Part shown: piece after piece, positions 13,301 to 33,381 of the stretch
How the letters are laid out: each line of letters opens with the position of its first letter
Numbering within the stretch: position 1 is the stretch's first letter
Assembly (NCBI GenBank): GCA_029962745.1
Contig: CM057167.1
Coordinates: forward strand, 16,732,204-16,796,203
Length of the DNA stretch: 64,000 nt
DNA from: Echinometra lucunter
Lineage: Eukaryota > Echinodermata > Echinoidea > Camarodonta > Echinometridae
Direction of reading: 5' to 3'
The notes under the pieces: model-generated
The model's database searches: none
What the model saw: only the letters and a program-made list of their open reading frames with translations
What the model was told of the DNA's origin: nothing
Position numbers and translations under genes: made by a program

Positions 13301-16300
13301 TGCCAATTTAAAAACTTTAATGATTAGTTACATTTAAACTGCTCAAATTTGAGAACGCAACATCATACTGCACTGAAAATGGACTCAAAATTTTCAGTGA
13401 ATTTTTCTCTTTCTACTCATGTATAATGTGTCATGCCCAGCATTCTGGACCAACAGATATTGCCAAAGCGTCTCCTAAAGGAGACACTGTACGTCTATGG
13501 GTTAAACTAATTTGACCTTTATCCCCTGCCCTAGTAAACCACCCCTGCTGAAGGTCGGTGAGCAGCTAGAAGTAACTTTGAGGGTCAGCATTGCTAACAA
13601 AGAAGAGGATGCTTACGATGCCAGGCTGGTTATCACCTATCCTGTCTACTTGGGATTCATCTCACTCACATCAGACTCACAGGTAAAGCCCATAGATGTA
13701 TTAATTCATTTACTAGACAAAAAGCAGCACACGCGGAAATCATTACCCAACTGGCATTAGGCCCCGCCTGTTTTGGATCACTTGAAGGGGTTGATAAGCA
13801 CCCGTTGTCGTCATGGTATGGAGAACACGGTTGCATTATTCATATCTATTGCGTGTGTCAGTTTTATTGTGACACTAGTTTATTGCACATTTATTATGCA
13901 TTTATTGCGCATGATGGGTGTAATGTTTCATAACGGATATGGGACACCTGATGGGTGTAATGTTTCATAACGGATATGGGACAGATTACCAGGACATGTC
14001 ATTCTCCATGGAAACCCAACTACGTTCAGAGAGGCTACACTACCTATCATCAGCATGATGCAGCCTCCTGTTGGGTCCCACATGCTATAAATGGACCAAT
14101 GCATGTTTTTACTCGCACCCCTGCATGCTCATTTTTATTGTATATATGTGAGCCAACCCAAATCCTGCACCTTGTCACCTCCATTGGCACATGACATTAT
14201 TGACATCCCATTATAGCTTCCAAGGAGCTGCGTTTTGGGATTACTGCGACAAGTAACAAGTAACGTGTACAAATGCACACTGCTCGTTGGAAGCATCTTA
14301 CAAAATGTATTATTCATTTTTGATCATGAATATGCAGAGGTGCTTAGGTAGGCCTTCTAATGGATCTGGACAAAATGGGGAAGCTTTCGGGGCCTGGTAT
14401 TGCCACTCACAGTTCAAGGTTAATGAGAAGCTTGAGCTTCGGGTTATGTAATGCATCTAGAGTGCCAGTGATATGTAATCCTTCCTCCATAATAGACATG
14501 ACCCTCCATCACAAAATGACCCATAAGGCGAGATTTGATATTTTAACATTTTAAAGACATTGGCTGACTTTGTGAGCAGCCGCTTTAAAAAATTCTCAAA
14601 TGAAACATGTGTATGAGTACTTGTATTTGTACTAAAAAACCCTGAAATGGACCATAATTTTGAATGAAAAACTGTAAGTTAGAGGCAAACCGCGATTTCA
14701 TTATTTTTCGTCTCAGAGACAATAAACAAGAGGACCATTTTGCTCGAATTAAAAAATACTGTTGTCTGCCTCCCGCTGCATGATACACCAAAACACACAG
14801 TACGGTCCGATGAGCCATGCGCGCNNNNNNNNNNNNNNNNNNNNNNNNNNNNNNNNNNNNNNNNNNNNNNNNNNNNNNNNNNNNNNNNNNNNNNNNNNNN
14901 NNNNNNNNNNNNNNNNNNNNNNNNNNNNNNNNNNNNNNNNNNNNNNNNNNNNNNNNNNNNNNNNNNNNNNNNNNNNNNNNNNNNNNNNNNNNNNNNNNNN
15001 NNNNNNNNNNNNNNNNNNNNNNNNNNNNNNNNNNNNNNNNNNNNNNNNNNNNNNNNNNNNNNNNNNNNNNNNNNNNNNNNNNNNNNNNNNNNNNNNNNNN
15101 NNNNNNNNNNNNNNNNNNNNNNNNNNNNNNNNNNNNNNNNNNNNNNNNNNNNNNNNNNNNNNNNNNNNNNNNNNNNNNNNNNNNNNNNNNNNNNNNNNNN
15201 NNNNNNNNNNNNNNNNNNNNNNNNNNNNNNNNNNNNNNNNNNNNNNNNNNNNNNNNNNNNNNNNNNNNNNNNNNNNNNNNNNNNNNNNNNNNNNNNNNNN
15301 NNNNNNNNNNNNNNNNNNNNNNNNAACGGACAAAATGAAAATACAGATGGGTCACTCTTGACAGGGAAACGAGACCAATCACAAGATTTTCATTTAGCGG
15401 TGCACTTTATCATATTCATATGATGTTGTCTATGTGTATCAGTTATAACGGAATATAAAAGTGTACCTTTGATGTGAAGTTTCCTTATCATTGTTGTCAG
15501 TCAATGTGACCCATGCTATAGTCTATCATGGATGTTTACATGTATACCATGCTTCATACCGGGTAAAAAATACTTTTTTTCCTTCAAGAGCTATTCTCTC
15601 TAAAAAAAACTCCCATCAACAACTTTACAGGAGGTACATGTATTTCTAGGTCAAAGGGAGCTATGCTGAATTGCTGATATTCCAAATTTCTCCTTGTATG
15701 TTGATTTTGCTGCTCCGAGGTCACGATTCACGAATTTATTGCTTATATTCTGAGCCGAGGCAAGAGCGACTGAAGAAAATGGTTGCCCTAAAGAATTGGG
15801 TTTTAAGGATTTTAGGGTGCTATTTAAGCTCCGCCGAGGGTGAAATCTCCCGTCACCGCCGGGTATTTTTTGCCCTGGCTTCATACCATCTCACAGTGAA
15901 TTCTGTTGGGAATTCAGCCAATCAGATGCAAGGATTCCAGTAGCTTATAACAGTTATTGCAACTTGTTATTGATAACAAGTTTTATGAAACGGGGCCCAG
16001 GATGCCACGCAAAGAAGGAACCTTATACCAACCGTCTTTCTGAATGAATAATTCCTCTGTTTGGCCCACTGGACACTTGACCACCTGAATGCTTTTTAAC
16101 ACATATACAGTGTACATGTGTATAGAAATGAAGAGTTTAATATTTAAAATATATATATCCTTTCTGTAAATTGAGATATTTGCAATTGAAGTTGCTAAAA
16201 TATGAAGAAAATGATAAGAAAATATATGATACTTAATATATCACATTTCTAAACATTTTCTTATTATGAGTGAGGTATTAAATGGGAGGCATTATGGGAT

Positions 16301-16692
16301 TTCATAGGATGGTGGTGTTACTTTAAAAAAAAAAAATAGAAAAATGAATGGCCTTATCATTTTTGCAGTTATACTCTTCATTTATTTACTACTTTTTTTG
16401 TTTCCTAGGATGCCTTTGCTGTATTATACGATGCATCAAAGGTACCCCCAGATGCTGAGGAATTCAATATCACGCTCGTTGCTTCCTCGTAAGTCAAAGA
16501 ACAGACATATGATTATGATGATATTCTGTTCTGGTATAGCGTACATCACATTGCGATTTAAAGTCTCTAAATTCAGATTCAGATTCAGATTCAGTTATTG
16601 TCATGCAAAGCAGGAAGTTTGATTTACAGTCTGGTAATTAAAGAATATATGTGAACAGTAACATAGCACAGGATAAAGATCAAAATAATGGC

Positions 16693-16724
<32 letters not shown>

Positions 16725-19700
16725 CAGCAGCAGTACTAGTAATAGTAGTAGTACTAGTAGCAGCAGTAGCAGTAGCAGTAGCAGTAGCAGTAGCAGTAGC
16801 ATAGCAGAAGTAGTAACAGTAGTTAACAGTAGTTGTCTCAGTAGTAGTAGCAGCAGTAGCAGTAGTAGTAGCAGTAGAAGTAGCAGTAGTAGTAGCAGTA
16901 GCAGTAGCAGTAGCAGTAGCAGTAGCATAGCAGAAGTAGTAACAGTAGTAACAGTAGTTGTCTCAGTAGTAGTAGCAGTAGTAGTAGCAGTAGTACTAGC
17001 AGTAGCAGTAGCAGTAGCAGTAGCAGTAGTAGTAGTAGCAGTAGTAGTAGCAGTAGCAGTAGCAGTAGTAGCAGTAGTACTAGCAGTAGCAGTAGCAGTA
17101 GCAGTAGCAGTAGCAGTAGTAGTAGTAGCAGTAGTAGTAGCAGTAGCAGTAGCAGTAGTAGCAGTAGTACTGGCAGTAGTAGTATTAGTAGCATTTTAGT
17201 AGCAGTAGTAGTAGCAGTAGCAGTAATATTGTAACATCAAACACTGATGTTCATTACATTTTTTATTCAAAGAGCAAAAAACAAACAAATGAAAAATGTA
17301 ACACCAAATGCCGACATTCATTGTATCATTGATTCAAAAGTTACTGCCAGTTTTGTGATGCAACTGCTTCTGTCCCTTTTTTTCTGTTTGTCATGTTGTA
17401 GGACCAATTCTGATTCTAACCAGGATGATAACAAACAAGTTATCACAGTAGAAGTCGAGAGCGTCACTGATATTCTCATCAGTGGGTAAGTCAAAGAAAG
17501 TTTTGTTAGTTTTCTTACTTTTTGAAAAAATCTGCTTATGTGAAATAAGAATTTTTGTTACTGAATAGCTATTTGGCTTAAAAGCCGTCAAGTGACACTC
17601 AACAATGTGTACAGCAGTGCTGTCATAGACAGGCCTTCTGTCGACACGTTTCTCGACAAACACTGTTTTTTGACAGAAATCGACATGTCGACAGTGATCC
17701 GATAATGTCAACATAATCAGAGTAGTTCAATCAAGATGAAGTTGAATACGTGGGACTCGGATTAGGGTTCCAGAAAGGGAGAAAATCATTTGAAAAATTC
17801 CATCAGACAAACTAGCTGAAAGTTAAATCTGTGATATAAAAAAAAAGTGAAGACGAAGTCGCAAAAGATAGTCACTCGTGCAGGGATTCCAGCTGCTCCA
17901 GCAGCAACTTACCACTGGCAGTGGCTGGCTCTAGCCATCCGAAAGTCAGTCGAGATCCAATAAGAATGGAAAAGTAAAACTCGTCAGTCCCCATGAATCA
18001 TCAATCACATGATAGCGGCGCCTGGGCAGTAAGTGCGATTGCGATGAAATAAAGACTGCACTGTACTTTCACAGTTTCACGAGAAATCATTTTTAGTTTG
18101 AATGGAAATAATAGAGTATGGATTATGGAATGATATAGGCCTATTGAGTGAGGAATTATTTTCCTTGTTTGTGCAAAAGTAGACACCAGGTATAATTTTT
18201 TTTTTAAATTTGTATTTTGAGGGCAGTTTTTTAGTTCAGTCTGTTGTGAGGTTACTGCCTTTTGGTGAAATACACACTGCAGTGACCGCGTGGGTGCATT
18301 CTCTGTGGTTTCAATTGGCGCACAATATTTTTTGATTGACTGTACGACCCAAATTCCTCAAAATATTACTTACCATGCCCTTTTTGTAAAATGACTTTGG
18401 CCTTGGTGCCCTTTGTAGTGGCCTTAGTGCCCTTAAAAATATGAGGCATTTAAGACCAAACTGGCCTTGCCCTCAAAATTGCCTGAGATAGCAAATACCC
18501 ACAATCTTATTTAACAACTATTGCATGCATATTTTTCTAGATAGCATACATGCACCTTTAATTAATTGAATAGATTAATTTAATAATTCATTAATAAAGG
18601 AATGAATGAAGAAATAAATAATTAGATTAGTAAATAAATAGATCAATGAATAAATAGATTTTTAAAAATAACAAATTAATAAGTACATGGATCAATAAAT
18701 GATTAAATACATGAATAAATGAGTAGATAAATGAATTAATAAAAACCTGACTATCCTGTTTTATTTGTTTCATGAACAGCGAGGGACCAGAGCAGCTTTA
18801 CTTCAGCGGGCAGGTGATTGGAGAGAGTGCTATGCAGTACTTTGAAGACATTGGATTGGCTGTCAACCAGAAATGGACGGTAAGTGCTCTCCTCAATGTT
18901 TGCGTTAAGATGATCACTGTATTGAGTCCATCTTTAAATTGGCATCAAAGTAAATGTTGTGTACCAAAATTTTATTTGTTAATTGGTTGGTAAGAACATA
19001 CATTAAGGACTAAACATGATCAGCTAAAGCTAATTTCCACATGGTCTTGATTGAAAGACTGTACATATAGCTGCAAGGAGTCCACTCATTTATGTTTCCA
19101 TATTAGAGGCACGAATTTTCCTAATTAACCCATTCGTGACAGAGGTCCACATTTTGTGGTTTGGCCTAATTCTTTGATGCAAAGCCCTAAAAATCATACC
19201 AAATACATGAGCAGAAAGAGCAAAATATTCTACATATACTGTGCCCATTTTGGTTCCATCAATATTCGTTGTTTGACGCTGAAATTTTTTAAAGGAAAAT
19301 AAGCAATAAAATCCTTAAATTGGCAATGTGATATAAAGTTTAAAATCACCGTTTTCCCCTGCAAATTGGCAACTTTTTGACTTCTCATAACTTCTGTCAA
19401 TTTATATTCATTTCAGATACATGACGTTTTATAAGAAAAATGTAGCTACTGTGATTGTTACTGTACTAGATCAAAAGATAATGCAAAAATGTCCCTAATA
19501 ATAATACTACTAATAATAGTGGCTACTTGTATAGCGCACAGGTCTGCCTTTTGGCACTCATGGTGCTAAAAAAAAAAAGAGAGAGACATTTTGCTGCTCT
19601 GGGTTAAAGGTAATCTCAACCTTTTGCAAAATCTACGAAAATCCATACAACTTGGCATGAGTTTAGGATATGCCCATCTGGTATTGTGTATTTAATCTTA

Positions 19701-22700
19701 TGGTCATACGTTGGTTAAGCTATTAATGTAAAATGAAAATCTGGCTACCAGTCTTGAATAAGCAAGTCGGATCAGCTCACTGGCAGTGCAGTAGATATGT
19801 ATTGCAGAGCTAGCTCAGCACAGCTTGCTCAGTGGCCACCACATGTACCGCTGAGGGAGCTATTCTAACTAACGGTCAAATTAAATTTTGAATCTTCTGA
19901 TCTATTTTTCGTGACACGAAAAATTTACTTATAAATCTAATAATTAGGAAAATTTTGATTAACACCCATCTTCCAGTTTAATCATTTGGTGGGAAGTTAT
20001 CTTTAATATACTATAATATACTACTAGATTCTTGTAATGTCAGATTTTAGGCTGCAAAAGGTTGAGACAAGCTTTAAAGTTACTGCGATTATGCCTTACG
20101 TTGTTCTTTTTTTTTTTTTTTAAATTTCAGATATTCAATGAAGGCCCTGGAGCAGTGAATACAGCCATAGTGAGAATCAACTTCCCCTACGAGGTGGCTA
20201 ACGGTAAATGGCTTCTATATATGACAGAGATGCCGTACGTCGAGGACAACAAGGGCTCGTGCAACGTTACCCCAGCCATCTACGTCAATGAGCTCGGTCT
20301 AAGGGTAAGAAGCTTGAAGGCTTACAAAAGGCCTCTTGAAACCATACGTTGTCTGTGTCCATGTGCATTGCAGGAATGTACCCACACTGGACTTTGGTTG
20401 AATTGATGATAATGATAATAATAATGATAATAATAGTAGTGATAATGATAATAATAACTGTGAATTTATATTGTTCAGCTTCTTTAGGAATATACTCAAT
20501 TGCACAGTAATGTGCAGAATGGTAACTGAATCCAGTGACCAGGGTGATAATAGCACTGTAAGTGCTTTGGCTAGTTAAAGAGCTTTTTAAGAAACTTGTA
20601 TTATTATTATTTTTACTATGGACTGCAGTATTTGTTTTGTTTACAGCCTAAGGATGGAGGGGTTCCCTACAATCCGGTGGGGGCAGGTGCTGGTGCAGGG
20701 TCTACGTCCCAGTCCAGGAAGAGACGCGAGGCAGAGGCATTAACTTCTACCAGAGAGCTTACAGCAGGCAAGGATGTCACACTTGTAAGTGAACCTTGGA
20801 TATTAAAGAGAAGTTTGAGTTTCGAGTAAGGTGAAACATAATTTGTCAGCTTTCTCATCCTTTTCATGTCTATCAGGAAGAATATCCTAGCAAAAAGGCT
20901 CCTTAGAAAGGATTACTTTTCAAAAGCTCTCATATTGGAAATATGACCAGGAATGAGTTGAGTTGAGTCATGGTTTATTTGTTCAAAAAGATTGTACATG
21001 ACAGGTAGCCAAAGGCTGAAATATGCATGCTTAAATAAATCATATTTGATTCAAACATACATGATAGTTAGTCATTAAGTTTGAAGTAATATGATATGAT
21101 GATATGATACATAGGAACACAAAATGATATAATTCAAAATCATTGTTGATTAATGTAATAAAACAGATTTCAGGCTAAAAGTAATTTGATAACATTGAGG
21201 AATACATTTAAGATTATAATTACAGACATAGACATGATTCACAAATTGCAAATATTACAAATATTGTTTCATGTGTATTCACATAGATACTGGTATATAC
21301 CTTATGTAGATTATTGGTAATTACATTAGAAATAGCTGAAAAGTAGGTGTCGAACATTCATGCCAGATTTATTTGTGGTGCCATATACTTGTTTCTACTG
21401 TGCATCGCAAGTATTTTTCAGTGAATTTCATATCAGTTCAATGATCCTTAAATCTCAGACTAGGCCCTGCCTTTTCTCATATGTACACCTCTTATACAAC
21501 TTTATTTGTATATGAAGGCCATGGTAAACTGCATTTGAAAACAAAAATGATAATAAAAAGTCTGGCGGTTCTTTGTGTACTTAGTGAATGGCTATTGGAA
21601 ATGAGTGATGAAATAAAGGGCTTATATTCTTTTCCTGTGTGTGTTCTAAGATACAACAAGCACTGTAGGCTTAACCCCTCTCCCCCATCCCATGTTTGTC
21701 CAGCCACTGAGGTGGAGCGAGACTAAGGGATCCTTAGCGACATCTGTCCGTCCATCTGTGACGTTTATCAACCTTGAATAACTTTGCACCCCTCTGCTCA
21801 TTTGTAACCAAACTTAGATGATAGATGCTCTGTAGAGACCTCAATGTTATTTGGGGGTCAAAGGTCATGCATGTAGATCAAAGGTCAAATGAGATCAAAT
21901 GTTGAAATTTACTTGCCAGTTTCTACTCAGGTTGGTAACTTTTGAATCATAAGCCCATTTGTAACCTAACTTGGATGGCAGATGCCTTACAGGGACCTTA
22001 GTGTTATTTGGGGTCAAAGGTCACATATGTAGGTCAAAGGTCAAATGTGGTCAAGTGTTACAATTCACCTGCAAGAATGATTGCACGTGAATGTGGTGAG
22101 ACACATTATGGCTATGGCCTTGTTTTTGATCAGTTTACTGCCACATATATTAACAAGTCTTCATATTCTTCAAATGTGAATTTGTTTTTCTTATAGGACT
22201 GTGCGGCTGGTAATGCAAAGTGCTTGACCATTAGGTGTGATCTTGACCCACTGACCAAAGAAAAGGGCATGAACGAGGTCAAAATTATCGTCCGGTCAAG
22301 GCTCTGGAACAGTACTTTCCTTGAGGTAAGGGAATTAATTAAATCCTATCCAGTTAGGGTGCTCTAATAAAATGATATCCCAGTGTAAACTAACCGTTTT
22401 TGTCTCGCCTGCGTAGCGGAGCGAGACATAGGTATCACTATTTCCGGTGTCGGCGTAGGCGGCGTCGTCGTCAACAATTGTGTTGTACACCCAATAACTT
22501 TCTATAGCTTTAAGGTGGGATCACCAAATTCATACCAGAGGTCCATCTCTTGAAGGCGCAGGTCAAGTTCGAATATGAGTCGAATTTGAATAAGGTCAAA
22601 GGTCAAAGGTCAATGAACTTTCCATGACTGGCACTGTGCTATATTGTACACACAATAACTTTTTATACCTTCGAGGTAGGATTGCCAAATTCATACAAGA

Positions 22701-25700
22701 GGTCCATCTCTTGAAGGTGCAGGTCAAGTTCGAATGTGAGTTGAATTTGATTAAGGTCAAAGGTCAAAGGTCAATGAACTTTCCATGACTGGCACTGTGC
22801 TGTGTTGTACACACAATAACTTTCTATAGCTTCGAGGTGGGATCACCAAATTTATACCAGAGGTACATCTCTTGAAGGCACAGGTCAAGTTTGAGTATGA
22901 GTTGAATTTGAATAAGGTCAGAGGTCAAAGGTCAATGAACTTTCCATGACTGGCACTGTGCTATGTTGTACACACAATAACTTTCTATACCTTCGAGGTA
23001 GGATTGCCAAATTCATATGAGAGGTCCATCTCTTGAAGGTGCAGGTCAAGTTCGAATGTGAGTTGAATTTGATTAAGGACAAAGGTCAAAGGTCAATGAA
23101 CTTTTCATAACTGGCACTGTGCTATGTTGTACACCTAATAACTTTCTATAGCTTTGACGTGGAATCACCAAATTCATACCAGAGGTCCATCTCTTGAAGG
23201 TGCAGGTCAAGTTACATTCTTTTTCACTAACATTCATTTCCTTACTTGCATGGAAATAATTATAGCTTCATAGTATTAACAGCATTCTTAGTGTTATCTG
23301 ATTTCCTAGGGATAAAGTAGGCCTATACCATTATTGCATATGTAAACTGTCAGAACCGCAATTCACCCCCTAAACTGCTGACAGCCTCAGAAGTCATATA
23401 GCATAGTTTTGACATGCAGTCTCTTCATGACTGCAATATGCAGGCGAGACAACGCTTGGCGTTTGCCTTGTTATTTGTCATTGCAATAAGTCATATCAGC
23501 AGAAATGATTAATTTTTTTTTTGTGTGTGGGATTCCAGGGCCATAGGCATCAGAGTGTTAGACCTTTGTCGTTGATATAATTGCATCTCAAATTGACTTA
23601 TGAAAATGAAAACATGTAGAAGATTCCAGTATTGTTATGAAAAATTTGAATTCTGTTTACATTATCATGTTTCAAAGAATGTTGTACATGTAATGGATGT
23701 GAAGCAGTGAAGGTTATTGTTTTCAGTAGATGCTTGCATTCTGCATTTTTGTTCTTAATCGACCATTTTGTCTGTAGGATTACATCAACGCCAAGAGCGT
23801 GAGAATTATAACCGAGGGATACATTGAGATAGAGAGCGCCCCCTACATCACCCAGACAAGGACCGACAACGATAGAGCTCAGGTGAGCTATTCAGGTTGC
23901 TCAGAGGATTGTTTGACATATCCAATTACTCCACCGTCAATTTCTAATTGCATTCCTAACTTTAAAACTGGACCCCATATTTTGGAGGTATTGTGGTTTA
24001 GTGGTTGATTCACTTACTCTTAAAGGGTTGAGGATTCAAATCCCAACCCAGCACTTTTTGGCAAGACTTTAATCCACTTTTTGCACCCTCCACTCAGGTG
24101 TTAAATGGGTACCTTGTAGGATACAAACATTAATGTAGTTACATTGGCATGTGTGAGCTTGTAAAATGGCATGGGGCAGGAACAATCCCCAGGGAGTGGA
24201 GACGGTGCACTACTGTATATGTGTGGGACAGCGATTGAAGTGTTGAAAAGGTTGCATTTGAATAAAAATCTTATTTTCGTTTCTCAATTCTTTCAGAGAT
24301 TGAGTCATACAATGAACCTTTGTAATCAGATGAAATTAAATCACGATCTTTCCGTCTCCTTTTCCTTCCCGTCAGCTCTCCCTGAGGATCACCCCCGACA
24401 TCAAGTCTCTACCCCCATCCAAACCACTCCAGTGGTGGATCATTGCCCTGGCCGTCATCGGAGGCCTCATCCTTCTCATCCTCCTCATCATCCTTCTGTG
24501 GAAGGTAAGAATACCATCATGCATTGGAATAATTCAAGATATACCGAGAAGCGCCAACATGGATGTCTATACTGGGTGTCCCAGAAGCGGAATGGTGAAT
24601 TTTCAGTACTTAAAAAAGTAGATATTTTTACATCTGTGGGTAAAGCATCGTCTACCAAAGAGAATGATACCAAGATCATTGAATTTGTGAAGTAATTTTG
24701 ATTCTATGCCTGTTTCTTAAAATAGAGTCATTTTCAAATTTTTGGCGACTGATGAGACTAGCATTGTGTTGGGATGGCCTTTCATAACACGATGGTTGAG
24801 AGAATTCCATTGATGCATGTCAATAACAAAATATGCCATACACATGCCATATGAAAGGCCATTCCCGACACGATTCTGCTCCGTCACAAAAAACATGCAA
24901 AATTCTAAAATTACTGTATTTTAAGAACGGGCATACAACCAAAATTACCTCACCAAATTCAATGATCTTGGTGTCATTCTCTTCGGTAGATGATGCTTTA
25001 CCCAATAATGTAAAAAAGATTATCTTCTTGTTGAAGGTAAAGCACTGAAAATCCACAGTTCCGCTTTTTCTGGGACAAGCGGTATATGTGATACAGTGCT
25101 ATATCTTTGTAGTTTGGGGGTAGCAAATCATTTCTTTTAACAACAGCAATTGGATGGATTGGATAAACTCTATTTGCTGTGCGATGTGAAAGGCAGTGAA
25201 ATGATGTTATTTTCAAATACACGAAAGATTCATGTATGCGACAACCATCTCGGTCACCATATAACTATTTGTTGTTCTTCAGAGTTATTTATTATTTCAT
25301 CATCTGAACATTCAGTTTGTGGAATAGTTTATCATGGCATCGATTTACAACGTTCAATTTCCATCTCTGGACTTTCATTCATTCATAGACAAAAAGACCA
25401 AAATATTGCATTTTAGATTCATTACTTAATTTGTCATACTAGTATTCATGCTGAATTGGGATGAAGCCGTAATGAACAAAAATCCATGGAAGTTTGCACA
25501 TTTGAAAGATATTTTCATTGTGTGTGTATATAAAGTTTACTCAAGCCATAGTCACTACATATCCTCTAGAAGCCCTTTACCCATCAAAATGATTGTCCTC
25601 ACTTCAGTCCCCATACTGCAGTTAAACGTACAAAATGATTGTTCGTTGCCAAGCATTTTCATTCATTCTGTTTACTGTATAAGCTGAAATTTTTGGGGTG

Positions 25701-28700
25701 GTTTAATTTTCCCTAGTTTCGCGATGATGTCCTCGCCAAAATTTCCGCTCAGTAAAATGCCTATATACTCGTGTAGAAATATCTTTTAAAACGTGAAAAT
25801 GATAACTCGCCAATATGTCAAACTTGTCTCAAATCGCTAACGTATCTGTACGCCAAAATATTAGCTTATACAGTACCTTGAAATTACATGGTTTGAAAAG
25901 TTACTGGTATGTCTGCCTCCTCGGTAATTGAATCTTACAAGAATGTGATCATAAACCCAGGCATTGGTGCAATTATGCAGATTGTCTTTTATGTGTAGTG
26001 ATTGCCATGGCAGTCTGCAATTTCCTGATTTCATGTTAATAGTATGTAGAAATGATTCATTCAATACAGCCTTGAGACATCGACTTCATTTGTTGTCAAC
26101 AACATCATTTATATTGTTTGGGTTTACAGTCTGACCATGGTTTATTAATATCATTTTATAGTATTCACATAGTCTAATGCGAAAAGTAAATTCACACTTT
26201 ATTACTGAACTAATCACATATATATATCTGCTTCTCTAAAAAATAAATATAAATCATTATTTGGAAGTTTTTGTAGATGAAATTTTTTTGTTCATATATT
26301 TCATCAAAATCATACAAAGTTTTAAGCTTGTGATGGAACCATTTCTTAGTTGCACCATACTGATATACCTACCATCAGTCATGAAAAGTGAGTTTACATT
26401 TTCTGATGAAATAAATGGATAAGGGAATTTATTTTGTACAGGACCCATTTCACAGAATTGCCCATTAGTAATTTGCTCCCATTTAGTCATATTCTTCACT
26501 GCATAGCCTTCCATTAAAATGATTACATGGCCAGAAACACTGCATCGCCAGCAAAATTACTGTTCCTCAATCTCTTCATTATCTCTTTCATCGATCATGT
26601 TAAGTGTATGCCCTCCTAATCATGTTTGATCCGTGAATTTGCCATTCAATTCCATCATCTCTAGATTACCCAGTACATGTAATGACATTGCACATAGAGT
26701 TATTCAAATCTTTAAGCCTACTGCTATTGAGTTCTCATGACACAGTGTGCAGAGATTGAGGAACATGTATTTGCTTTTGCCATGTTACCATTTATGACAA
26801 TGCTGCTGTTCAATGCAAAAAGGAAGCAACTCTGATATTTTTCAAAATGGACTTTTTCTTGATTTGAGATACATTTTTGTGTGTTCTACATGTACATGAT
26901 AATGAAGAGGATATTGAAGTCCCGTGACCTCCAATTTCCGAAACAGACATGTTAAAAGGAAGCAACTCCATAGATTTCCAGATAAAACAGTGACATATTT
27001 TTTTCATTTACTTAGAAACTCATTCTACAGAGTCGCTTCCTTGTGTCATTGGAAGGCAGAACGGTTATTTCATGTTAACTTTCATTTTTTTTCCCTCATT
27101 GATCTCAGTCTTTAACAGCAAATTATTTCCATCTTTTTAACAGCTTGTAGATTTATTCTTAATCTTATACTAAACAAAGAGACCTGTATATTTTCATGAA
27201 TATCATTTCTTTTTAGCAGCAAATATATATTTGCATGACTAAGCTTGTCAGAAATACCCTGATAAAAAAAAGAAAGATCAGAAAGGGCATTGAAATACGG
27301 TACTACCAGTAAAGATTACACAAATTTATGCCCTTTTTTTTCTCAGGGGACAATATTGGGACTAAGATTTTTAGTCATTTTCTCTGCTAACAGTACAAAA
27401 TGAACATGGTCGCAAACCTTTGAAGATTGACCCAATTTCAATGCCTCATTTTGCTGATTTTTAGAAATCAAAGGCCGTAAAGAGACATTTTATTATGGGA
27501 TGTGACTCAAGATAGAAGGATGGAACCCAGCTGTAGCGAATACCCTTGAATCTAGGAAATAGCTCTGTTTTATTCATACGCTGTACTTTGTAAAACAAGG
27601 TTATGAAATGCATTATAAAACATCAGCTGAAAAAAGAAAGAAAAAAAAAAGCATTTAAGTGATTTAGTGAGTGATTTATTTCTAGAACATTCTAAAAAAA
27701 AAAAAGCTGTGGAAAATCTTGCCACTGCAATACCAAGCAATGAGACCATCAAAATTTAAAATGAAGTTTTTACAACTGTGTTCTTTACAGCATGGGTCTG
27801 GTGTTTGTAAAATAGAAAAAGGTGTTTTCGACTGTGTTTATATACCTAGTACATTGCATAGGCATCATTTCCTGTTATACTCTGATCATCTAACCACATA
27901 TATTTTTTATGGCATGGTGCATTCGTCATCATCGCGCCATTTTTCTACTCATCCAGTGCGGATTTTTCGCACGACCCGGAACGAGAGGAGGCGGACCAGT
28001 GCGTAACGATTGGTTTAACCCTTTCAATGCATCTTGCTTCTGTATTAACATATAATCTTTTGTGTGATGGTCATTTGTGCCTGTGTGTGTTTTGTACGAC
28101 TTTTAATCGCGAGCCTGCAGCTTTTGTTCTCTGGTATTGAGTGCAATACCTCTAAACTTTGGGGATTGTGTAACATTTTCCTGTGTCCACGTATGTTTGT
28201 GATAAAATAAAGTATGTATGTTATATGAAATGATGTTATACTCTTCCCTTTAATGTAGACCTTCTCTTGTCTTCTTTACTTTTGCTCACTCTATTCATTC
28301 TTTGCCTGTCAGTCTCTGTATTTAACCCATTCGTGACAGGAATTATTTAAAGCCTAATTTGATCAGCTTTTATTCTTCAAATTGGCAACACCAACATTTT
28401 TATTTATTGCTACATTTTTCTTATAAAACATCATGTATCTGAAATCAATATAAATTGACAGAAATTATGATGAGAAGTAAAAAAGTTGCCAATTTGTAGG
28501 GAAAAACAGTGATTCTAAACTTTCGATCACATTGCTAATTTAAGGATTTTAATGCTTATTTTCCTTTAAAAAAATTTCAGCATCAAACAACGAATATTGA
28601 CGCAACCAAAATGGGCACAGTTTGTGTAGAATTTTTTTGCTCTTTCTGCTCATGTATTTGGTATGATTTTTAGGGCTTTGCATCAAAAGATATTAGGCCA

Positions 28701-29972: not shown

Positions 29973-30033
<61 letters not shown>

Positions 30034-30510: not shown

Positions 30511-33381
30511 TGATAATAATACCATATTTATGAAATGAATAATAAGCATACACTATTCTCTGCACTGTAATTTATCATAGCTTGTTTTTTAGGTGGTATC
30601 AAAAGTATTCCTCATGAAATTTCAGCCTATAATTCAGGCAACATCATAATTTAATACCAAGTATTGTAATACAGTAGATGCAGAGGCGTCGGAACGTTCT
30701 GATCAGACAAAACATTGGAGGGGCAAGCCATTGTTAACACACAATGGCTTGCCCCTCCAATGTTTTGTCTGATCAGAACGTTCCGACGCCACTGAGTAGA
30801 TGTATTTGTTAGATTTTTTTTTTTTAAATCCTGGACTGATTGAATTTTCAAAGCTTTTCCTGTAATTGTTGTCTAGCGTCAATTTCGGCAAGATTGGCCT
30901 TCACATGTATGTTAATCCAACTGGGTTGAAGTACATCGTACTTCAGAAACTTTTTTAAAGAACAAAAATAGAAGTGTGATATGTTTTCTGTTTGAGCCAT
31001 GACCTATACTTTTAATGCTTTTGTCAATCAAACCAATAGTACCTACAGTGGTTAAGTCTAAATAATGACCGATTTTCAGCAGATAGAGTAGGTACTTCCC
31101 CGACTGGACTTTGTAAGTGGCCTAATTTCATAATTTTCAATCATATAAAAGGGAGACCTAGTGGCTTCTCAGTATCACTGTAGTTTCACGAGATAGAAGA
31201 TGTACTTCCTTGATTTGAACATTGTACACAGGGGCAGCACCAGGGTATTTTGATAGGGAGCGGGGGCAAAATGACCCATAGGTACATTTATTTACATTTT
31301 AAATGAACAAAATGGGGTATCAATGTATATAGTTGCATGCCCCAGCCCTCTCTTTCCCCATACTCTTCTTTCTTCTTCCTCCTGTTTTTCTTCTTTTTCT
31401 CCTGATTTTTTTCTTTTTTATCACTTGAAAAATCATGGGGGGGGGGGGGGGTGGTCACCCCCCACCTTGCACCGCCCCTGATTGTACATGATTATTTTTA
31501 TTGTGTGAGTCAGAGCAATGGTGGGTACAATGGCTTCTTTAAACAATTACTACATACTTTCACAAGATAGAATAGATGCTATCATAACTGGATATTGTGA
31601 ATGACCTACATTTTGTCAATCAACTGAAACATACATGTAGATAATAATGGCTGTTACTGTATTTTAAACAAAATAGAATGGATACTACCACGAATTTCTG
31701 TTGTTAATTTACCAGAGATTGCAGTTTAGACATTAGTAACACTTGGTGAAATCCATTTTTTCCCGATATTAATTAAGGGATTGCAGTGGGGTGATGGGGT
31801 TTCATAGCATATTGCAAATAAAATACATATGGTAGGCCTACTGAAACTTTTTTTCACAACAGTGCTTTATGTTTGGATTTTGGTTGTTGGTGTGGTTTTT
31901 TTTTTCAATTTGATATCAAGTACATGGATATCAAAACTATACATTTTCCATTTTTACATACATTTTCAGATTGTTATTTGTCAAGTATATTTTACTTATA
32001 TTAGGAGACAGTCAACGAATAAACATATTTAGAGGGGTTATTTTGCTGATCTGTGTTTTTAAACAAAATATAATACAAATTGGATCACCATTATTAGTGC
32101 ATGAGAAGTGCGTTCTTATTGAGAAAAATTTCCTACAAATAAACATATTTAGAGGGCTTATTTTGCTGATCTCTGTTTTTAAACAAAATATGATATAAAT
32201 TGGCATCCCTATTATTAATATACATGTATGAGAAATGGGTCCTTATCAAGGGAATTTTTTTACTTATTTATATAGTCTGAATCTTTACTGAGAAATCTGT
32301 CATGTGATATGACATGCAGATTTGGTTGAGATATACTAGTATCACTTTCAGTAAATTTTTCTTTAAGCTTTAGCTTTCTACTTCTTGTTGGGGATTTGGG
32401 TTTGGGTTTTTTTTTTCCTCTTTGCTGTATTATTGTATTTCAGTATTTACCATACTTCCTTATTTCTTTTTTATTTGCATGATTCTGAGTGAAAAGTTTG
32501 GTCTTTGCTGGTATGATTTGATTTAAAGTATCTTGATGTATTATTATTTTTTGAAATTTGTTTTTAATACTATTTTTCTCTTTGTGTAACATAATTTCCT
32601 CTATTTAGTATTTTTTGTTTTGCATTTAAATGGAGGAGATGATGTATTTTTATTTGTTTATTTATTGCATATTTTTGCCTGGAGTAAATATTGCAACATG
32701 CTGCATTCTTCTCTCTGATTTTTAAGAAAGGATTAGAAGTCTTTTATAAGTATTTAATAGGTAATTGGTCTTTCACAATACCCTTCGTTACTTAACTTAC
32801 TAGGATAAGTCATGAAGTGGTAAAAATTAAATAGATGATGATTGATATTTTTGTAATTGCATATGCACATGGATCGTTACCTTAAATTCATATTTGAAAC
32901 ATCATGTATGCATTGTAAATGTGCCGATCAACATCACTTACTAAATTAACAATAACTCACATATCGAGAGACACATATGAGTTCTGATTACTTAATATCT
33001 TATTGTTTTTGTCATGGATGTAAAGCTTTAGGAACTGGCATTCAGTGTGCATTTTCTATCGGAAAAGAGTTAGGATCTGAAATGCTTAAGTCTGACCCTG
33101 TGCATCTTTCAGTGGTATAATGATCTCATGGTTACACTTATTTTGCATGGAGAATCGGGGATTCTAATCTTATTTGATCTGTGTGTACTCTACTGTTGAG
33201 TACACTTGACGAAAGTCTACAAATTTCGAATTCTAACTCTCCTTTTCCGTATTATCACTCCTTGCAGTGTGGATTCTTTGAGCGCAAGACGGGATACAAG
33301 TACGCCACGGTGACACAGCAGCAAGCCTCAGGCAAGGCCAAGACAGAGAAGACTGCGTACTACGATGACATGTACTATTAA
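1076..33381 (+). CDS. Integrin alpha subunit, laminin-receptor-like class, 3' part of gene
   Basis: The integrin alpha chain pairs with a beta chain at the plasma membrane as a matrix receptor. Sixteen exons join in phase: 1076-1331, 2821-2922, 6523-6584, 7283-7443, 10266-10421, 11824-11903, 13535-13682, 16409-16488, 17402-17485, 18780-18879, 20131-20304, 20647-20784, 22197-22325, 23778-23882, 24376-24504, 33268-33381. They give about 671 codons covering the last FG-GAP blade, thigh, calf-1, calf-2, membrane helix and tail. No I-domain is seen in the visible part. The class call rests on NGKWLLY, RSRLWNSTFLE and LLWKCGFF, which I know from vertebrate alpha6-type chains, and on RKRR cleavage before the light chain. 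The 5' half of the protein lies upstream of the window. About 25-35 calf-1 residues are missing between exons 7 and 8, beside the first N gap. An alternative last exon is at 27957. Confidence 0.93.
1530..2097. mobile_element. Foldback TTAA-type MITE, ~270-bp arms
   Basis: TTAA at 1530-1533 and 2094-2097 bounds two long inverted arms. The left arm starts AGGGTAAGTCCACCCTAGAA; the right arm is its near-perfect complement (one change near the tip). The arms meet around AGAATTGCTTTTTGC near 1812, leaving only a small spacer. There is no coding capacity. TTAA borders point to piggyBac-type mobilisation by inference. It lies in the intron between the first two visible integrin exons. Confidence 0.85.
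2100..2480. repeat. Degenerate copy of the 13090-13505 family
   Basis: GGACACTGTACTACTGCGGGTTA at the right side corresponds to GAGACACTGTACGTCTATGGGTTAA at 13481-13505, and the interior shares TTGCCAATTTTAGAGTTTACTGATTAGCTAC. The left border is unclear because the foldback element ends just before it. Confidence 0.45.
2821..2922 (+). CDS. Integrin alpha exon 2: start of thigh domain
   Basis: The acceptor is CTTCATCCAG and the donor GTAGGT; the exon runs phase 2 to phase 2. It completes the Arg codon of the previous exon and reads GRPVINIEASVTLSHSVLD, then PNSTNCVYSGRDSL and the first two bases of a Cys codon. The R-P-V-I-N-I sequence after the last propeller blade is a hallmark of integrin alpha chains. 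A minus-strand frame over 2755-2994 is only its antisense shadow. Confidence 0.92.
2935..3355. repeat. Palindromic pseudo-satellite of TTGGTCTAAT words
   Basis: The left half (to about 3145) is a run of degenerate ~17-20 bp units such as CCCACTTGGTCTAAT and CCATTTCGTCTAAT. The right half carries the complementary words (ATTAGACCAAATGG, ATGAGACGAAACG), so the block is an imperfect giant palindrome. It begins only about 12 bp after the donor of integrin exon 2. No coding signal is seen. Confidence 0.75.
3463..3672. repeat. 105-bp tandem duplication, two copies
   Basis: Two adjacent copies start at ATGACGTTTCATGAC (3463 and 3568) and are essentially identical. Because 105 is divisible by three, minus-strand frames run open through both copies, which produces spurious 73- and 108-codon reading frames. 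Confidence 0.9.
4191..4215. repeat. Poly-C run
   Basis: About 21 consecutive C residues sit between GGGGGGCCAAATAA and GGGCGATG. Together with the preceding GGGGGG this could form a GC-rich hairpin. The flanking 3673-4560 bases are AT-rich intron in which I see no feature. Confidence 0.8.
4562..4829. mobile_element. MITE, GGGGTGTTTCACAAAGACT ends, copy 1
   Basis: Inverted ends GGGGTGTTTCACAAAGACTA and TAGTCTTTGTGAAACACCCC are flanked by CCTGG-like target duplications. The interior words GGCTGGCCATTCAT and TCTCTTGAGAGACC are shared with the copy at 12761-13071. It is non-coding. Confidence 0.8.
4937..5068. mobile_element. Fragment of GGGCCCCGTTTCATAAAACTT MITE family
   Basis: It begins GGGCCCCGTTGCATAAAACTT and has internal inverted words (TTACCATTTATGGTAA, GTTACTACGGTAGTAA). 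The same family appears at 15898-15999 and 50093-50224. It ends where the AGGTCA-bearing repeat block begins, so it is either truncated by that block or was its insertion target. Confidence 0.6.
5070..6262. repeat. Tandem ~150-bp repeat block with AGGTCA direct repeats
   Basis: The block starts TTTTTTGTCTTGCCCATCGG and ends near GGGCGAGACACAA / ATTGCCTTG. Between these lie about six full units and fragments, each opening TTTACCTGCAAGACTCTC. Two unit types occur: A (AACTTGGCAACTGTTGGTCC) and B (AACTTTGCAACCGTTGCTCC), in the order A-A-B-A-B-A. Most units carry AGGTCAAAGGTCA or a one-base variant, for example 5305-5317. Related material is at 21700-22125, 22408-23470 and 49096-49397. No protein is encoded. 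Confidence 0.8.
6523..6584 (+). CDS. Integrin alpha exon 3: thigh domain
   Basis: The acceptor is CTCCCCCTGTAG and the donor GTAAGT; the exon runs phase 2 to phase 1. It reads (C)FQVQLCMSYYCIAPQFNEPV, matching the Cys-Phe-x-V-x-x-C segment of integrin thigh domains. An alternative donor GTGAGT four bases earlier would shift the frame and hit a stop in the next exon, so GTAAGT is chosen. Confidence 0.9.
6834..7057. mobile_element. 224-bp hAT-like MITE with 8-bp target duplication
   Basis: Inverted ends ATGGTGGCCCTGAAATATGC and its complement at 7037-7057 are flanked by exact AGATAGTT duplications (6826-6833 and 7058-7065). An 8-bp duplication is characteristic of hAT and P superfamilies. The interior is rich in ATTCGCGAA-like words. 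Confidence 0.88.
7201..7278 (+). repeat. 39-bp tandem duplication of a polypyrimidine tract
   Basis: Two copies of a unit starting CTTTTTCTTCACTGAATCTT stand in tandem (7201-7239, 7240-7278). The second copy runs directly into the TTGCAG acceptor of integrin exon 4, so the splice-site pyrimidine tract itself has been duplicated. Confidence 0.92.
7283..7443 (+). CDS. Integrin alpha exon 4: thigh domain
   Basis: The acceptor is TTTCTTGCAG and the donor GTATTG; the exon runs phase 1 to phase 0. It reads INFNIEAEGVRRSKVLNSRV, then VFEDSGIYSLTKQSLNITQ and DDVACSPNYNVVLK. NIT is a possible N-glycosylation site. The pattern (I/E)AE..RRSK..SRV.F resembles the alpha6-class thigh. Confidence 0.93.
7914..8760. 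mobile_element. 847-bp hAT-like element with CCGAAC repeats
   Basis: The ends TAGGGCTGT and ACAGCCCTA are flanked by ATTGATCA (7906-7913) and ATTGATCC (8761-8768), an 8-bp duplication with one change. Subterminal runs of CCGAACCGAAC occur inside both ends. There is no transposase frame, so it is non-autonomous. Confidence 0.82.
9394..9881. mobile_element. TTAA-flanked MITE, CTCTTACAGTGC ends
   Basis: TTAA at 9394-9397 and 9878-9881 flanks inverted ends CTCTTACAGTGC and GCACTGTAAGAG. The body is AT-rich and non-coding. It is a different family from the CCCATTCGTGACA elements but shows the same target choice. Confidence 0.8.
10266..10421 (+). CDS. Integrin alpha exon 5: thigh domain
   Basis: The acceptor is TCTCCTGCAG and the donor GTGAGT; both ends are phase 0. 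It reads AGFKDIFRPIPINVTFYLPE, then EEAVMPQPGDPLPSMADFPI and LQEGQQTMIMQY. KDIFRPI is strongly conserved in integrin thigh domains. NVT is a possible glycosylation site. Confidence 0.94.
10493..10772. mobile_element. 280-bp MITE, AGGCCTC..GTCCGGGCCAC ends
   Basis: The left end (10493-10525) and right end (10740-10772) are imperfect inverted repeats of about 33 bp: AGGCCTCAGCACACCGAAT against AGGCCTCCGCAGACCGAAC on the other strand. Open frames inside have no recognisable product. Confidence 0.75.
10912..11210. mobile_element. MITE with AAGCCAGAGTGAACTGG ends
   Basis: AAGCCAGAGTGAACTGG on the left is mirrored by CCAGTTCACTGTGGCTT on the right, about 300 bp apart; inner words TAGCGCCA and TGGCGCT are also inverted. 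It is non-coding. Bases 11211-11430 are ordinary pyrimidine-rich intron. Confidence 0.65.
11433..11725 (+). mobile_element. 5'-truncated non-LTR retrotransposon end
   Basis: A short frame reads GERSFAQTCPALGNGLPEDI followed by KKSVTSDFFKDHVKRLY. This is the form taken by the extreme C-terminus of many non-LTR reverse-transcriptase proteins (SF...P.LWN.LP..I..S.....FK..LK..L). A short 3' UTR and an ATT/ATC microsatellite tail (11643-11725) follow, as expected for such elements. Confidence 0.7.
11824..11903 (+). CDS. Integrin alpha exon 6: thigh/calf boundary
   Basis: The acceptor is GTCTTTTTCAG and the donor GTAAGT; the exon runs phase 0 to phase 2. It reads VNFSKECAKDDGECITDLAV then NASINLG. 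The Cys pair in KEC..DDGEC is the conserved disulfide of this region. NAS is a possible glycosylation site. Confidence 0.93.
12008..12390. repeat. Imperfect inverted repeat of ACTTAGCAAAATTT words
   Basis: Words such as ACTTAGCAAAATTT, GGCTAAGTATTTTACT and GACTTAAGCC on the left recur inverted on the right (AAATTTCTTAGCCAAAGAAAATACTTAG, GGCTTAAAG). Clear termini are not visible, so it is given as a degenerate foldback repeat. Confidence 0.45.
12761..13071. mobile_element. MITE, GGGGTGTTTCACAAAGACT ends, copy 2
   Basis: Same family as 4562-4829, with ends GGTTGTTTCACAAAGACTTA and AGTCTTTGTGAAACACCCT. CCAG occurs directly outside both ends. Interior words GGCTGGCCATTCATGCC and CTCTTGAGAGACC-like segments are shared. 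Confidence 0.82.
13090..13505. mobile_element. TTAA-flanked MITE with CCCATAGA ends
   Basis: TTAA at 13090-13093 and 13502-13505 flanks ends CCCATAGAAGTACAG and CTGTACGTCTATGGG. TTAA-CCC is the border form of piggyBac-type elements. It ends 29 bases before integrin exon 7, so the remaining splice acceptor region is very short. Confidence 0.83.
13535..13682 (+). CDS. Integrin alpha exon 7: calf-1 domain
   Basis: The acceptor is CCCTGCCCTAG and the donor GTAAAG; the exon runs phase 2 to phase 0. It reads KPPLLKVGEQLEVTLRVSIA, then NKEEDAYDARLVITYPVYLG and FISLTSDSQ. The E.AY.A.L...YP pattern is the usual calf-1 strand. The next expected calf-1 segment, with a Cys pair and a GNP-like turn, is not found before the N gap. 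Confidence 0.92.
13913..13984. repeat. 37-bp tandem duplication
   Basis: GATGGGTGTAATGTTTCATA is repeated at 13913 and 13950 with a 37-bp period. It is followed by unremarkable intron to the N gap. Confidence 0.9.
14825..15324. other. Assembly gap, 500 N
   Basis: Exactly 500 N, probably a placeholder of unknown true length. Reading frames spanning it are artefacts. It lies in the interval where one calf-1 exon of the integrin is expected. Confidence 1.
15898..15999 (-). mobile_element. Fragment of GGGCCCCGTTTCATAAAACTT family
   Basis: The fragment ends AACAAGTTTTATGAAACGGGGCCC and contains TAGCTTATAACAGTTATTGC and CCAATCAGATGCAAGGATT, both shared with 50093-50224 in the opposite orientation. 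The other end is missing. Confidence 0.6.
16409..16488 (+). CDS. Integrin alpha exon 8: calf-1 domain
   Basis: The acceptor is TTTGTTTCCTAG and the donor GTAAGT; the exon runs phase 0 to phase 2. It reads DAFAVLYDASKVPPDAEEFN then ITLVASS. It corresponds to the calf-1 segment downstream of the Cys-loop missing from exon 7, which is why an unseen phase 0/0 exon is proposed. Confidence 0.88.
16563..16590. repeat. (AGATTC)n hexanucleotide tract
   Basis: Four to five tandem AGATTC units, a simple repeat in the intron after exon 8. Confidence 0.85.
16693..17227. repeat. (AGT/AGC)n trinucleotide tract, ~535 bp
   Basis: AGT and AGC units are mixed, with two longer duplicated blocks marked by ATAGCAGAAGTAGTAACAGTAG (about 16800 and 16925) and an internal repeated AGTACTAGC pattern. 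All homopolymeric Ser, Val or Leu frames here are artefacts of the repeat, which is intronic. Confidence 0.95.
17402..17485 (+). CDS. Integrin alpha exon 9: calf-1/calf-2 boundary
   Basis: The acceptor is TCATGTTGTAG and the donor GTAAG; the exon runs phase 2 to phase 2. It reads TNSDSNQDDNKQVITVEVES then VTDILISG. The V.V...D..I.G pattern is the strand leading into calf-2. Confidence 0.88.
17486..18779. other. Intron, no feature beyond AT-rich tract
   Basis: Ordinary intron. The only notable part is 18560-18750, rich in AATGAATAAATAGAT-type words. I see no conserved open frame or transposon ends. Confidence 0.7.
18780..18879 (+). CDS. Integrin alpha exon 10: calf-2 domain
   Basis: The acceptor is TTCATGAACAG and the donor GTAAGT; the exon runs phase 2 to phase 0. 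It reads EGPEQLYFSGQVIGESAMQY then FEDIGLAVNQKWT. The pattern P.Q.YF.G.V.GE.AM is close to the alpha6-class calf-2 start. Confidence 0.94.
19125..19607. mobile_element. TTAA-flanked MITE, CCCATTCGTGACA ends, copy 1
   Basis: TTAA followed by CCCATTCGTGACAG starts the element. Its body matches 28322-28737 in inverse orientation (CAAAGCCCTAAAAATCATAC, TGTGCCCATTTTGGTT). The right end, near GGGTTAA at 19601-19607, is disturbed by an AATAATACTACTAATAATAG / TATAGCGCACAGG insertion. Confidence 0.8.
20131..20304 (+). CDS. Integrin alpha exon 11: calf-2 domain
   Basis: The acceptor has a long T tract then TTTCAG; the donor is GTAAGA; both ends are phase 0. It reads IFNEGPGAVNTAIVRINFPY, then EVANGKWLLYMTEMPYVEDN and KGSCNVTPAIYVNELGLR. 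NGKWLLY is nearly identical to the alpha6-class segment. NVT is a possible glycosylation site. Confidence 0.95.
20405..20457. repeat. (GATAAT)-type microsatellite
   Basis: TGATAATAATGATAATAAT units with interspersed AGTAG, within the 342-base intron between exons 11 and 12. Confidence 0.85.
20647..20784 (+). CDS. Integrin alpha exon 12: calf-2 with RKRR cleavage site
   Basis: The acceptor is TTTGTTTACAG and the donor GTAAGT; both ends are phase 0. It reads PKDGGVPYNPVGAGAGAGST, then SQSRKRREAEALTSTREL and TAGKDVTL. RKRR is at 20716-20727. Such a dibasic site is cut by furin-type proteases to give disulfide-linked heavy and light chains. A Gly-Ala linker (GAGAGAG) precedes it. Confidence 0.95.
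21700..22125. repeat. AGGTCA-bearing repeat block, two units
   Basis: It starts near GAGGTGGAGCGAGACTAAGG (parallel to 5090) and contains two ~180-bp units with CTTAGATGATAGATGC or TTGGATGGCAGATGC. Perfect AGGTCAAAGGTCA occurs in the second unit (about 22031-22043), and GGGTCAAAGGTCA in both units. It ends about 70 bases before integrin exon 13. Confidence 0.75.
22197..22325 (+). CDS. Integrin alpha exon 13: calf-2, light chain
   Basis: The acceptor is TTTTTCTTATAG and the donor GTAAGG; both ends are phase 0. It reads DCAAGNAKCLTIRCDLDPLT, then KEKGMNEVKIIVRSRLWNST and FLE. The Cys pattern DC....KCL.I.C and RSRLWNSTFLE are classic integrin alpha light-chain sequence. NST is a glycosylation site. 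Confidence 0.96.
22408..23470. mobile_element. TIR-bounded tandem array with triple AGGTCA half-sites
   Basis: The left end TTTTTGTCTCGCCTGC and right end GCAGGCGAGACAA are inverted. Between them are about five ~160-bp units (TACACACAATAACTTTCTAT ... GAGGTCCATCTCTTGAAGG). The first two units contain three AGGTCA half-sites spaced by one base (22593-22612 in the first); units three and four carry variants (AGGTCAGAGGTCA, AGGACAAAGGTCA). It is non-coding. The inverted ends suggest it moves or amplifies as a unit. Confidence 0.75.
23778..23882 (+). CDS. Integrin alpha exon 14: calf-2
   Basis: The acceptor is TTTTGTCTGTAG and the donor GTGAGC; both ends are phase 0. It reads DYINAKSVRIITEGYIEIES then APYITQTRTDNDRAQ. 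The position, directly after RSRLWNSTFLE and before the membrane exon, fits. Confidence 0.93.
23985..24245 (+). mobile_element. tRNA-derived SINE
   Basis: The head GGTATTGTGGTTTAGTGGTT resembles a pol III A box, and GGATTCAAATCC (24032-24043) is a B box. The typical body follows: TTTGGCAAGACTTTAATCCAC, ACCCTCCACTCAGGTGTTAAATGGGTACC. The same body type appears at 47012-47425 and 42236-42415. Confidence 0.8.
24376..24504 (+). CDS. Integrin alpha exon 15: membrane helix
   Basis: The acceptor is CCTTCCCGTCAG and the donor GTAAGA; both ends are phase 0. It reads LSLRITPDIKSLPPSKPLQW then WIIALAVIGGLILLILLIIL and LWK. The 23-25 hydrophobic residues after QWW form the membrane span. LLWK must be followed by CGFF, so a terminal exon starting TGY-GGN is required; two candidates exist, at 27957 and 33268. 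Confidence 0.96.
24568..25085. mobile_element. 518-bp mariner-like MITE
   Basis: TATACTGGGTGTCCCAGAAG on the left and CTGGGACAAGCGGTATA on the right are inverted with terminal TA. The interior is also inverted over long stretches (AGCATCGTCTACCAAAGAGAATGA against TCATTCTCTTCGGTAGATGATGC). Short similar open frames occur in both arms but represent no known protein. Confidence 0.78.
25086..27956. other. Intron, no feature identified
   Basis: AT-rich intronic sequence between the MITE and the candidate alternative exon. Short frames of 60-90 codons occur on both strands without recognisable products. I see no paired transposon ends. Confidence 0.6.
27957..28055 (+). CDS. Candidate alternative terminal exon: CGFFAR cytoplasmic tail
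   Basis: The acceptor CATTTTTCTACTCATCCAG is followed by TGC GGA TTT TTC GCA CGA, reading CGFFARPGTRGGGPVRND then WFNPFNASCFCINI and TAA. Joined in phase 0 to LLWK of exon 15 it gives WKCGFFAR, a form of the integrin alpha membrane-proximal GFFKR motif that keeps the essential Arg. GC content is locally higher than in the surrounding intron. AATAAA lies 151 bases after the stop. Vertebrate alpha3/6/7 chains also use alternative tail exons, each opening CGFFKR. The tail after PGTRGG is not one I recognise, and an internal donor or a one-base error could change its end. Transcript evidence is not available here. Confidence 0.72.
   Translation, partial: CGFFARPGTRGGGPVRNDWFNPFNASCFCINI
28206..28211 (+). 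promoter_or_regulatory. Poly(A) signal AATAAA of alternative terminal exon
   Basis: AATAAA followed by GTATGTATGTTATATG (GT-rich) fits a cleavage and polyadenylation signal. It closes a 3' UTR of about 150-170 bases for the 27957 exon. Confidence 0.55.
28254..28812. repeat. ~70-bp direct duplication flanking a MITE
   Basis: ATGTAGACCTTCTCTTGTCT through CAGTCTCTGTATTTA occurs at about 28254-28323 and again at 28738-28811, with a few differences. The TTAA MITE 28322-28737 lies exactly between the two copies. Confidence 0.85.
28322..28737. mobile_element. TTAA-flanked MITE, CCCATTCGTGACA ends, copy 2
   Basis: TTAA at 28322-28325 and 28734-28737, with ends CCCATTCGTGACAGG and TGTCACGAATGGG. It is a full-length copy of the family at 19125-19607. 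TTAA-CCC borders are typical of piggyBac-type elements. Confidence 0.87.
28813..29944. other. Intron, no feature identified
   Basis: AT-rich sequence; only weak short frames, including a Lys-rich minus-strand frame at 29294-29614 made of A-rich codons. Nothing is supported. Confidence 0.6.
29945..30520. repeat. (TAA/TGA)n trinucleotide tract, ~575 bp
   Basis: AATAATGATGATAAT-type units run almost without interruption. Long Ile/Met homopolymer frames on both strands are artefacts. It is intronic. Confidence 0.95.
30681..30794. mobile_element. Near-perfect palindromic hAT MITE, 114 bp
   Basis: The left arm CAGAGGCGTCGGAACGTTCT is mirrored by the right arm ending CCGACGCCACTG. The arms are about 54 bp and differ at one terminal position. 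AGTAGATG is duplicated exactly outside both ends (30673-30680, 30795-30802). CAG ends and an 8-bp duplication are canonical for hAT elements. Confidence 0.93.
31229..31480. mobile_element. 252-bp hAT-like MITE
   Basis: The ends CAGGGGCAG and CCGCCCCTG are flanked by exact ATTGTACA (31221-31228, 31481-31488). The interior includes a poly-G run near 31437-31451 and a pyrimidine tract. It is non-coding. Confidence 0.87.
32018..32257. repeat. 120-bp imperfect tandem duplication
   Basis: AATAAACATATTTAGAGGG recurs at 32018 and 32138, with following TTATTTTGCTGATCT and TTTTTAAACAAAATAT shared. The copies diverge towards their ends. The remaining intron up to 33267 shows no feature. Confidence 0.85.
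33268..33381 (+). CDS. Integrin alpha exon 16: distal terminal exon, CGFFER tail
   Basis: The acceptor is CACTCCTTGCAG and the stop is TAA at 33379-33381. It reads CGFFERKTGYKYATVTQQ then QASGKAKTEKTAYYDDMYY. In the membrane-proximal GFFKR motif the Lys is replaced by Glu, while Arg, used for the inner-membrane salt bridge with the beta chain, is kept. The tail ends in a Tyr/Asp cluster (YYDDMYY). It follows an intron of 8763 bases. Confidence 0.95.
   Translation, partial: CGFFERKTGYKYATVTQQQASGKAKTEKTAYYDDMYY

Follow-up and report, generated by a model that had tools for sequence, protein, structure and literature searches.

A conserved 42-nt block coding for a GFFxR motif in the last intron of an echinoderm laminin-type integrin alpha gene, probably an in-frame cassette exon

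The analysed window, a stretch of 64,000 nucleotides from Echinometra lucunter (contig CM057167.1), carries the 3' portion of a gene for an integrin alpha chain on its + strand. The closest protein, P0001 of S. purpuratus ('integrin alpha-6 isoform X2'), gives collinear tblastn matches from 1075 to 33378, which identify 15 exons 5' of the tail exons; residues 1-398 of P0001 are not covered by the window, and for residues 727-754 tblastn gives no match within it, a loss for which the N gap at 14825-15324 could perhaps account. The joined partial protein matches the Pfam families Integrin_A_Ig_1, _2 and _3, all above the cut-off, and neither form of its tail matched PF00357, the integrin alpha cytoplasmic family of Pfam. 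The highest named non-echinoderm matches, among the best 120 of 783, are alpha6-like, alpha-PS1, alpha7 and alpha3. By these similarities the gene appears to encode a laminin-type (alpha6-like) integrin alpha, its grouping with PS1/alpha3,6,7 as against alphaV,5,8 being uncertain: the closest solved structure to the window protein is alphaV, and the tree contains no RGD-type outgroup. Elsewhere in the window, a single-exon rhodopsin-type GPCR of 386 aa is encoded at 59644-60801 on the - strand (PF00001, E 9.8e-42), and a possible second GPCR lies in two pieces at 49427-51130 on the + strand, the first with a weak 7tm_1 match below the cut-off and the second (268 aa) with no Pfam match. The features of the integrin gene are these:

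1076..23882, + strand: 14 exons of this gene 5' of exon 15, found by tblastn with P0001
24376..24504, + strand: exon 15, coding for the end of the ectodomain and the transmembrane segment (..ILLWK), phase 0, donor tggaag followed by gtaaga
27957..27998, + strand: probable in-frame cassette exon CGFFARPGTRGGGP, membrane-proximal GFFxR and Gly/Pro linker (acceptor, donor, homologs)
27999..28004, + strand: predicted donor GTGCGT after GGACCA (GGACCA followed by GTGCGTAA), best of 23 GTs
27999..28055, + strand: read-through frame VRNDWFNPFNASCFCINI and stop, read as intron (frame, GC, chance estimates)
28061..28120, + strand: GU-rich stretch (TGTG/GTGT) with its core at 28061-28090, densest in the intron
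28206..28211, + strand: AATAAA, present at roughly chance frequency, possibly a cryptic poly(A) signal
33268..33381, + strand: distal terminal coding exon CGFFERKTGYKYATVTQQQASGKAKTEKTAYYDDMYY and stop, in phase after LLWK

Exon 15 is 89% identical to P0001 over 44 aa (tblastn), and all residues of the distal exon (37/37) are identical in P0001 and in P0002 of L. variegatus. A preliminary description of this DNA had placed between them, in a last intron of 8763 bases, an additional terminal exon that begins after a good acceptor with CGFFAR in the phase of exon 15, and ends with an in-frame stop and a poly(A) signal of its own. As far as the sequence elements are concerned, this description holds: the intron spans 24505-33267, the acceptor ctactcatccag directly precedes 27957, and a TAA at 28053-28055 and an AATAAA at 28206-28211 follow. 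The first 42 nt read TGC GGA TTT TTC GCA CGA CCC GGA ACG AGA GGA GGC GGA CCA, the first six codons giving CGFFAR, and are succeeded by GTGCGT. Splice sites were scored with a simple self-made matrix of consensus frequencies instead of a trained model. On this scale the 27957 acceptor ranks 6 among the 378 AGs of the intron, and the 27999 donor (1.47) is the top of 23 GTs in 27957-28210, closely followed by a GT at 28191, 3' of the stop (1.34); the same donor is within the top 3.1% of 453 intron GTs and is weak compared with ten used donors of the same gene (2.29-8.73). The GC content is 0.62 inside the 42 nt and 0.35 immediately 3' of them. A poison exon is ruled out, the 42 nt being free of stops.

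The exons at 27957 and 33268 both begin with CGFFxR and share the same phase-0 junction after LLWK; their first 18 nt agree at 12/18 positions, which carries little weight on whether the echinoderm proximal exon and that of vertebrate alpha6 have a common origin. The claim that CGFFxR directly after a splice site would hardly arise by chance is well founded. In 2000 dinucleotide shuffles, AG followed by TGYGGNTTYTTY (the CGFF codons) is expected 0.002 times per intron, against 1 observed; the window peptide is identical to that of Asterias P0008 at 11/14 residues, a level reached by 0/200000 shuffles, and the second-best of 17442 intron frames scores 5/14 against the same peptide. The intron is long and T-rich and contains a second CGFF string at 31891 (ruled out as a further exon because it has no acceptor AG), which might speak for a chance origin, an AG merely happening to precede CGFF codons; against these numbers such an origin is vanishingly improbable, and it is already refuted by homologs that carry the motif twice.

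These homologs come from a protein search that gave 783 matches at E <= 1e-10 from 7995 scored candidates, of which the best 120 were taken; with two follow-up searches, 122 proteins were compared. A double motif was defined as two occurrences of [CVILFM][GD]FF, 11-17 residues apart, within the last 260 residues. Two motifs are present in 6 of the 122 proteins, one in 115, and none in P0030. All six double-motif proteins are from echinoderms or fall on the echinoderm branch:

P0006, Amphiura (brittle star): CGFFKRGVIPGTQSGGP-CGFFERK
P0007, Patiria (sea star): VGFFRRPGTRSGGGGP-CGFFERK
P0008, Asterias (sea star): VGFFRRPGTRSGGP-CGFFERK
P0009 and P0011, sea cucumber branch: IGFFRRPFTSGGSGGP-CGFFERK and IGFFRRPSIGGSGGP-FGFFERK
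P0016, Anneissia (crinoid/feather star): VGFFERHGNSP-CGFFERK

The general pattern is [C/V/I]GFFxR with a linker, then [C/F]GFFERK. In alignment A1, which comprises the window, the six double-motif homologs and four skipped-form rows, the insert of all six homologs directly follows LWK and directly precedes the [C/F]GFFERK that the distal exon encodes. The residue x of the inserted GFFxR is Ala in the window and Arg or Lys in 5/6 relatives; the crinoid insert keeps GFFER and is shorter (11 aa) and less similar. Four of the six inserts come from NCBI-sourced rows, taken as automated models. P0009 and P0011 (contigs of 3.7 and 5.3 kb, proteins of 1094 and 1110 aa) we take as transcripts because the contigs are too compact for a gene with long introns.

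Among the 17 echinoderm or echinoderm-like rows, the six with two motifs are accompanied by 11 with one: P0001-P0005 of the urchin branch, P0010 of Apostichopus (unlike the sea cucumber-branch P0009 and P0011), P0012 of Acanthaster, which shows read-through, P0013-P0015 of crinoids, and P0121, judged by eye to be similar to Amphiura, though without the insert. Crinoids apparently hold two paralogs of this integrin alpha, and the insert is seen in one Anneissia row only (P0013-P0016). A search with the P0007 tail gave 7 rows, none of them new beyond the first protein search. In a tree built from the window together with 25 proteins out of the 122, the window groups with the rows of the urchin branch (100/100). 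Its 17 echinoderm rows, window included, all fall together (100/99), and hemichordates come next (99/97). The insert is therefore most simply viewed as an exon that predates the living echinoderm classes, with loss in some lineages or an independent gain in the crinoid being possible.

The distribution in urchins bears on whether the exon is a relic, that is, an ancestral echinoderm cassette that went out of use in this lineage and persists as sequence alone. The insert is found in 0/5 urchin-branch rows (P0001-P0005), each a representative of a 90% identity cluster behind which isoforms may be hidden (P0001 stands for 6 sequences and P0002 for 7), and a fragment search for the sea urchin inclusion form gave 2 matches, both without the insert; the weakness of the 27999 donor points the same way. 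Nevertheless, in an otherwise AT-rich intron the reading frame is unbroken, acceptor and donor are in place and 11/14 residues are preserved, a state to which long neutral decay is poorly suited, so that a relic is improbable.

Composite terminal exons that combine a splice site with intronic polyadenylation are a known class, and the locus resembles them in having a weak donor within the exon, followed by a stop and AATAAA. Under such a reading, the 27999 donor would be bypassed, translation would end at 28053-28055, and cleavage after the AATAAA at 28206 would yield a tail without the Tyr-rich distal exon. The protein P0012 of the sea star Acanthaster planci (an NCBI model) indeed continues past the donor, GGGP-VRTKT.., with 140 extra residues and the distal tail excluded; this extension may be an error of the gene model or may reflect a genuine composite terminal exon. 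The V-R that it shares with the window is to be expected because a donor in phase 0 (GTGCGT or GTAAGA, for instance) codes for these two residues. Beyond VR, the window and Acanthaster agree at 3/16 residues (shuffle P 0.037), which is slightly above expectation and which we would not regard as conservation. The read-through is 140 aa in Acanthaster versus 18 in the window, and no other of this kind was seen in the 122 tails (best 120 of 783 plus follow-ups). The stop and the AATAAA occur roughly at chance frequency: 18 open codons follow 36% of intron positions, and an AATAAA is found <=255 nt from 18% of them. Furthermore, relatives splice the exon onward, the match to homologs stops at the donor and the GC content drops there, and thus the sequence past 27998 is best read as intron. 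Hence the originally proposed terminal exon, complete with a poly(A) signal, is not supported, given the six homologs and the near-chance AATAAA, with Acanthaster P0012 counting the other way; the Gly/Arg-rich tail that was to replace the distal one came from reading through the in-frame donor at 27999, and homologs contain both blocks. A composite terminal exon at this position is unlikely, and it may coexist with splicing of the block as a cassette.

The region 3' of the donor is unusual in its composition. The TGTG/GTGT density of 28061-28120 is matched by 31 of 8703 overlapping 60-nt segments of the intron, every one of which starts in 28000-28099. The core of this stretch begins 63 nt 3' of the cassette exon, and it is a possible binding site of a splicing regulator, although one spotted post hoc; UGG is barely enriched downstream (4 in 250 nt versus an intron mean of 3.2). 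The combination of a weak donor with the densest TGTG/GTGT cluster would suit regulated splicing. The same intron harbors repeats. An element at 28315-28744, just 3' of the cassette exon, has 24-nt terminal inverted repeats (92%) with 382 nt between them and is flanked by two 76-nt direct repeats (28249-28324 and 28734-28809, 93% alike), so that it looks like a MITE inside a local duplication; at 30681-30794 there is a foldback with 54-nt arms that are 98% complementary and a 6-nt loop.

With predicted flanking splice sites and a length that is a multiple of 3 in the window, and with both products among echinoderm relatives, the block at 27957-27998 is very probably, on sequence comparison, a conserved and alternatively used 42-nt cassette exon of the echinoderm laminin-type integrin alpha gene; we infer its use in this species, its regulation and its function. 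Because the block is 42 nt long and stop-free, the reading frame is preserved. Skipping would produce the tail ..LLWK-CGFFERK.., i.e., K-CGFFERKTGYKY..., and inclusion the tail K-CGFFARPGTRGGGP-CGFFERKTGYKY... with two GFFxR motifs. Inclusion would thus exchange the membrane-proximal GFFER for GFFAR, at the motif position that normally helps to hold the beta tail, and add a Pro/Gly linker, shifting the old GFFER and the tyrosines 14 residues deeper into the cytoplasm; the first Tyr after the proximal motif would move from position 4 (skipped) to position 18 (included). GFFKR is described as holding the alpha tail in association with the beta tail, and the position of a tyrosine that follows it as affecting inside-out activation (PMC5864728). 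The splice switch may accordingly tune the association of the alpha and beta tails and the threshold of inside-out activation, and the second GFFER may be freed for cytosolic partners. More tentatively, and with more doubt than confidence, we consider an echinoderm switch older than the split of the classes, in which, of the two GFFxR motifs, the proximal one, exchanged for another sequence, would set the beta-tail clasp and the released one would recruit partners; failure of the weak donor may additionally end transcripts, making this a three-way tail switch.

In vertebrates, alpha3 and alpha7 also have A/B cytoplasmic splice variants, and the tandem-GFFxR cassette would be a variation on this known tail splicing of alpha3/6/7. 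The alpha6A and alpha6B forms are described as differing by a 130-nt stretch that carries a stop and shifts the frame, so that the tails mutually replace each other, with exon 25 of vertebrate ITGA6 controlled by ESRP1 via downstream UGG motifs (PMC5930856). The parallel lies in the same receptor class, in an alternative choice of tail sequence directly behind the membrane segment, in GFFxR being kept in both forms, and in the proximal exon being optional. Unlike the 130-nt stretch of alpha6, the echinoderm exon is 42 nt, in frame and stop-free, and as a consequence the distal tail is retained and GFFxR is doubled. Mutually exclusive exons of the vertebrate A/B type are rejected in favor of a cassette because six homologs contain both blocks. 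Of the vertebrate-type switch first envisaged, the two exons that start with CGFFxR at the same junction remain, whereas the exchange of tails does not, the proximal exon having no stop and the distal tail being kept. In sea urchin embryos, alphaSU2 is described as a laminin-binding epithelial integrin (PMC2397394), and alphaSU2 of Lytechinus is possibly the same gene as the one in the window. Among the matches listed in the open-licence PMC literature, which most subscription papers lie outside, a tandem-GFFxR isoform or this exon is unreported in echinoderms.

What remains of the original proposal is a real proximal coding exon after LLWK in an alpha gene of the laminin-receptor type, conserved in six homologs, and reading it as a cassette corrects a gene model in which it would otherwise be taken for a truncated terminal exon. 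In integrin alpha tails, GFFxR is the conserved point of control next to the membrane, and a natural isoform with two copies and a flexible linker would put three modes of action of the motif to the test: position at the membrane, sequence, and free docking. The echinoderm exon further suggests that, outside vertebrates too, laminin-type integrins switch their tails by means of alternative exons that follow LLWK.
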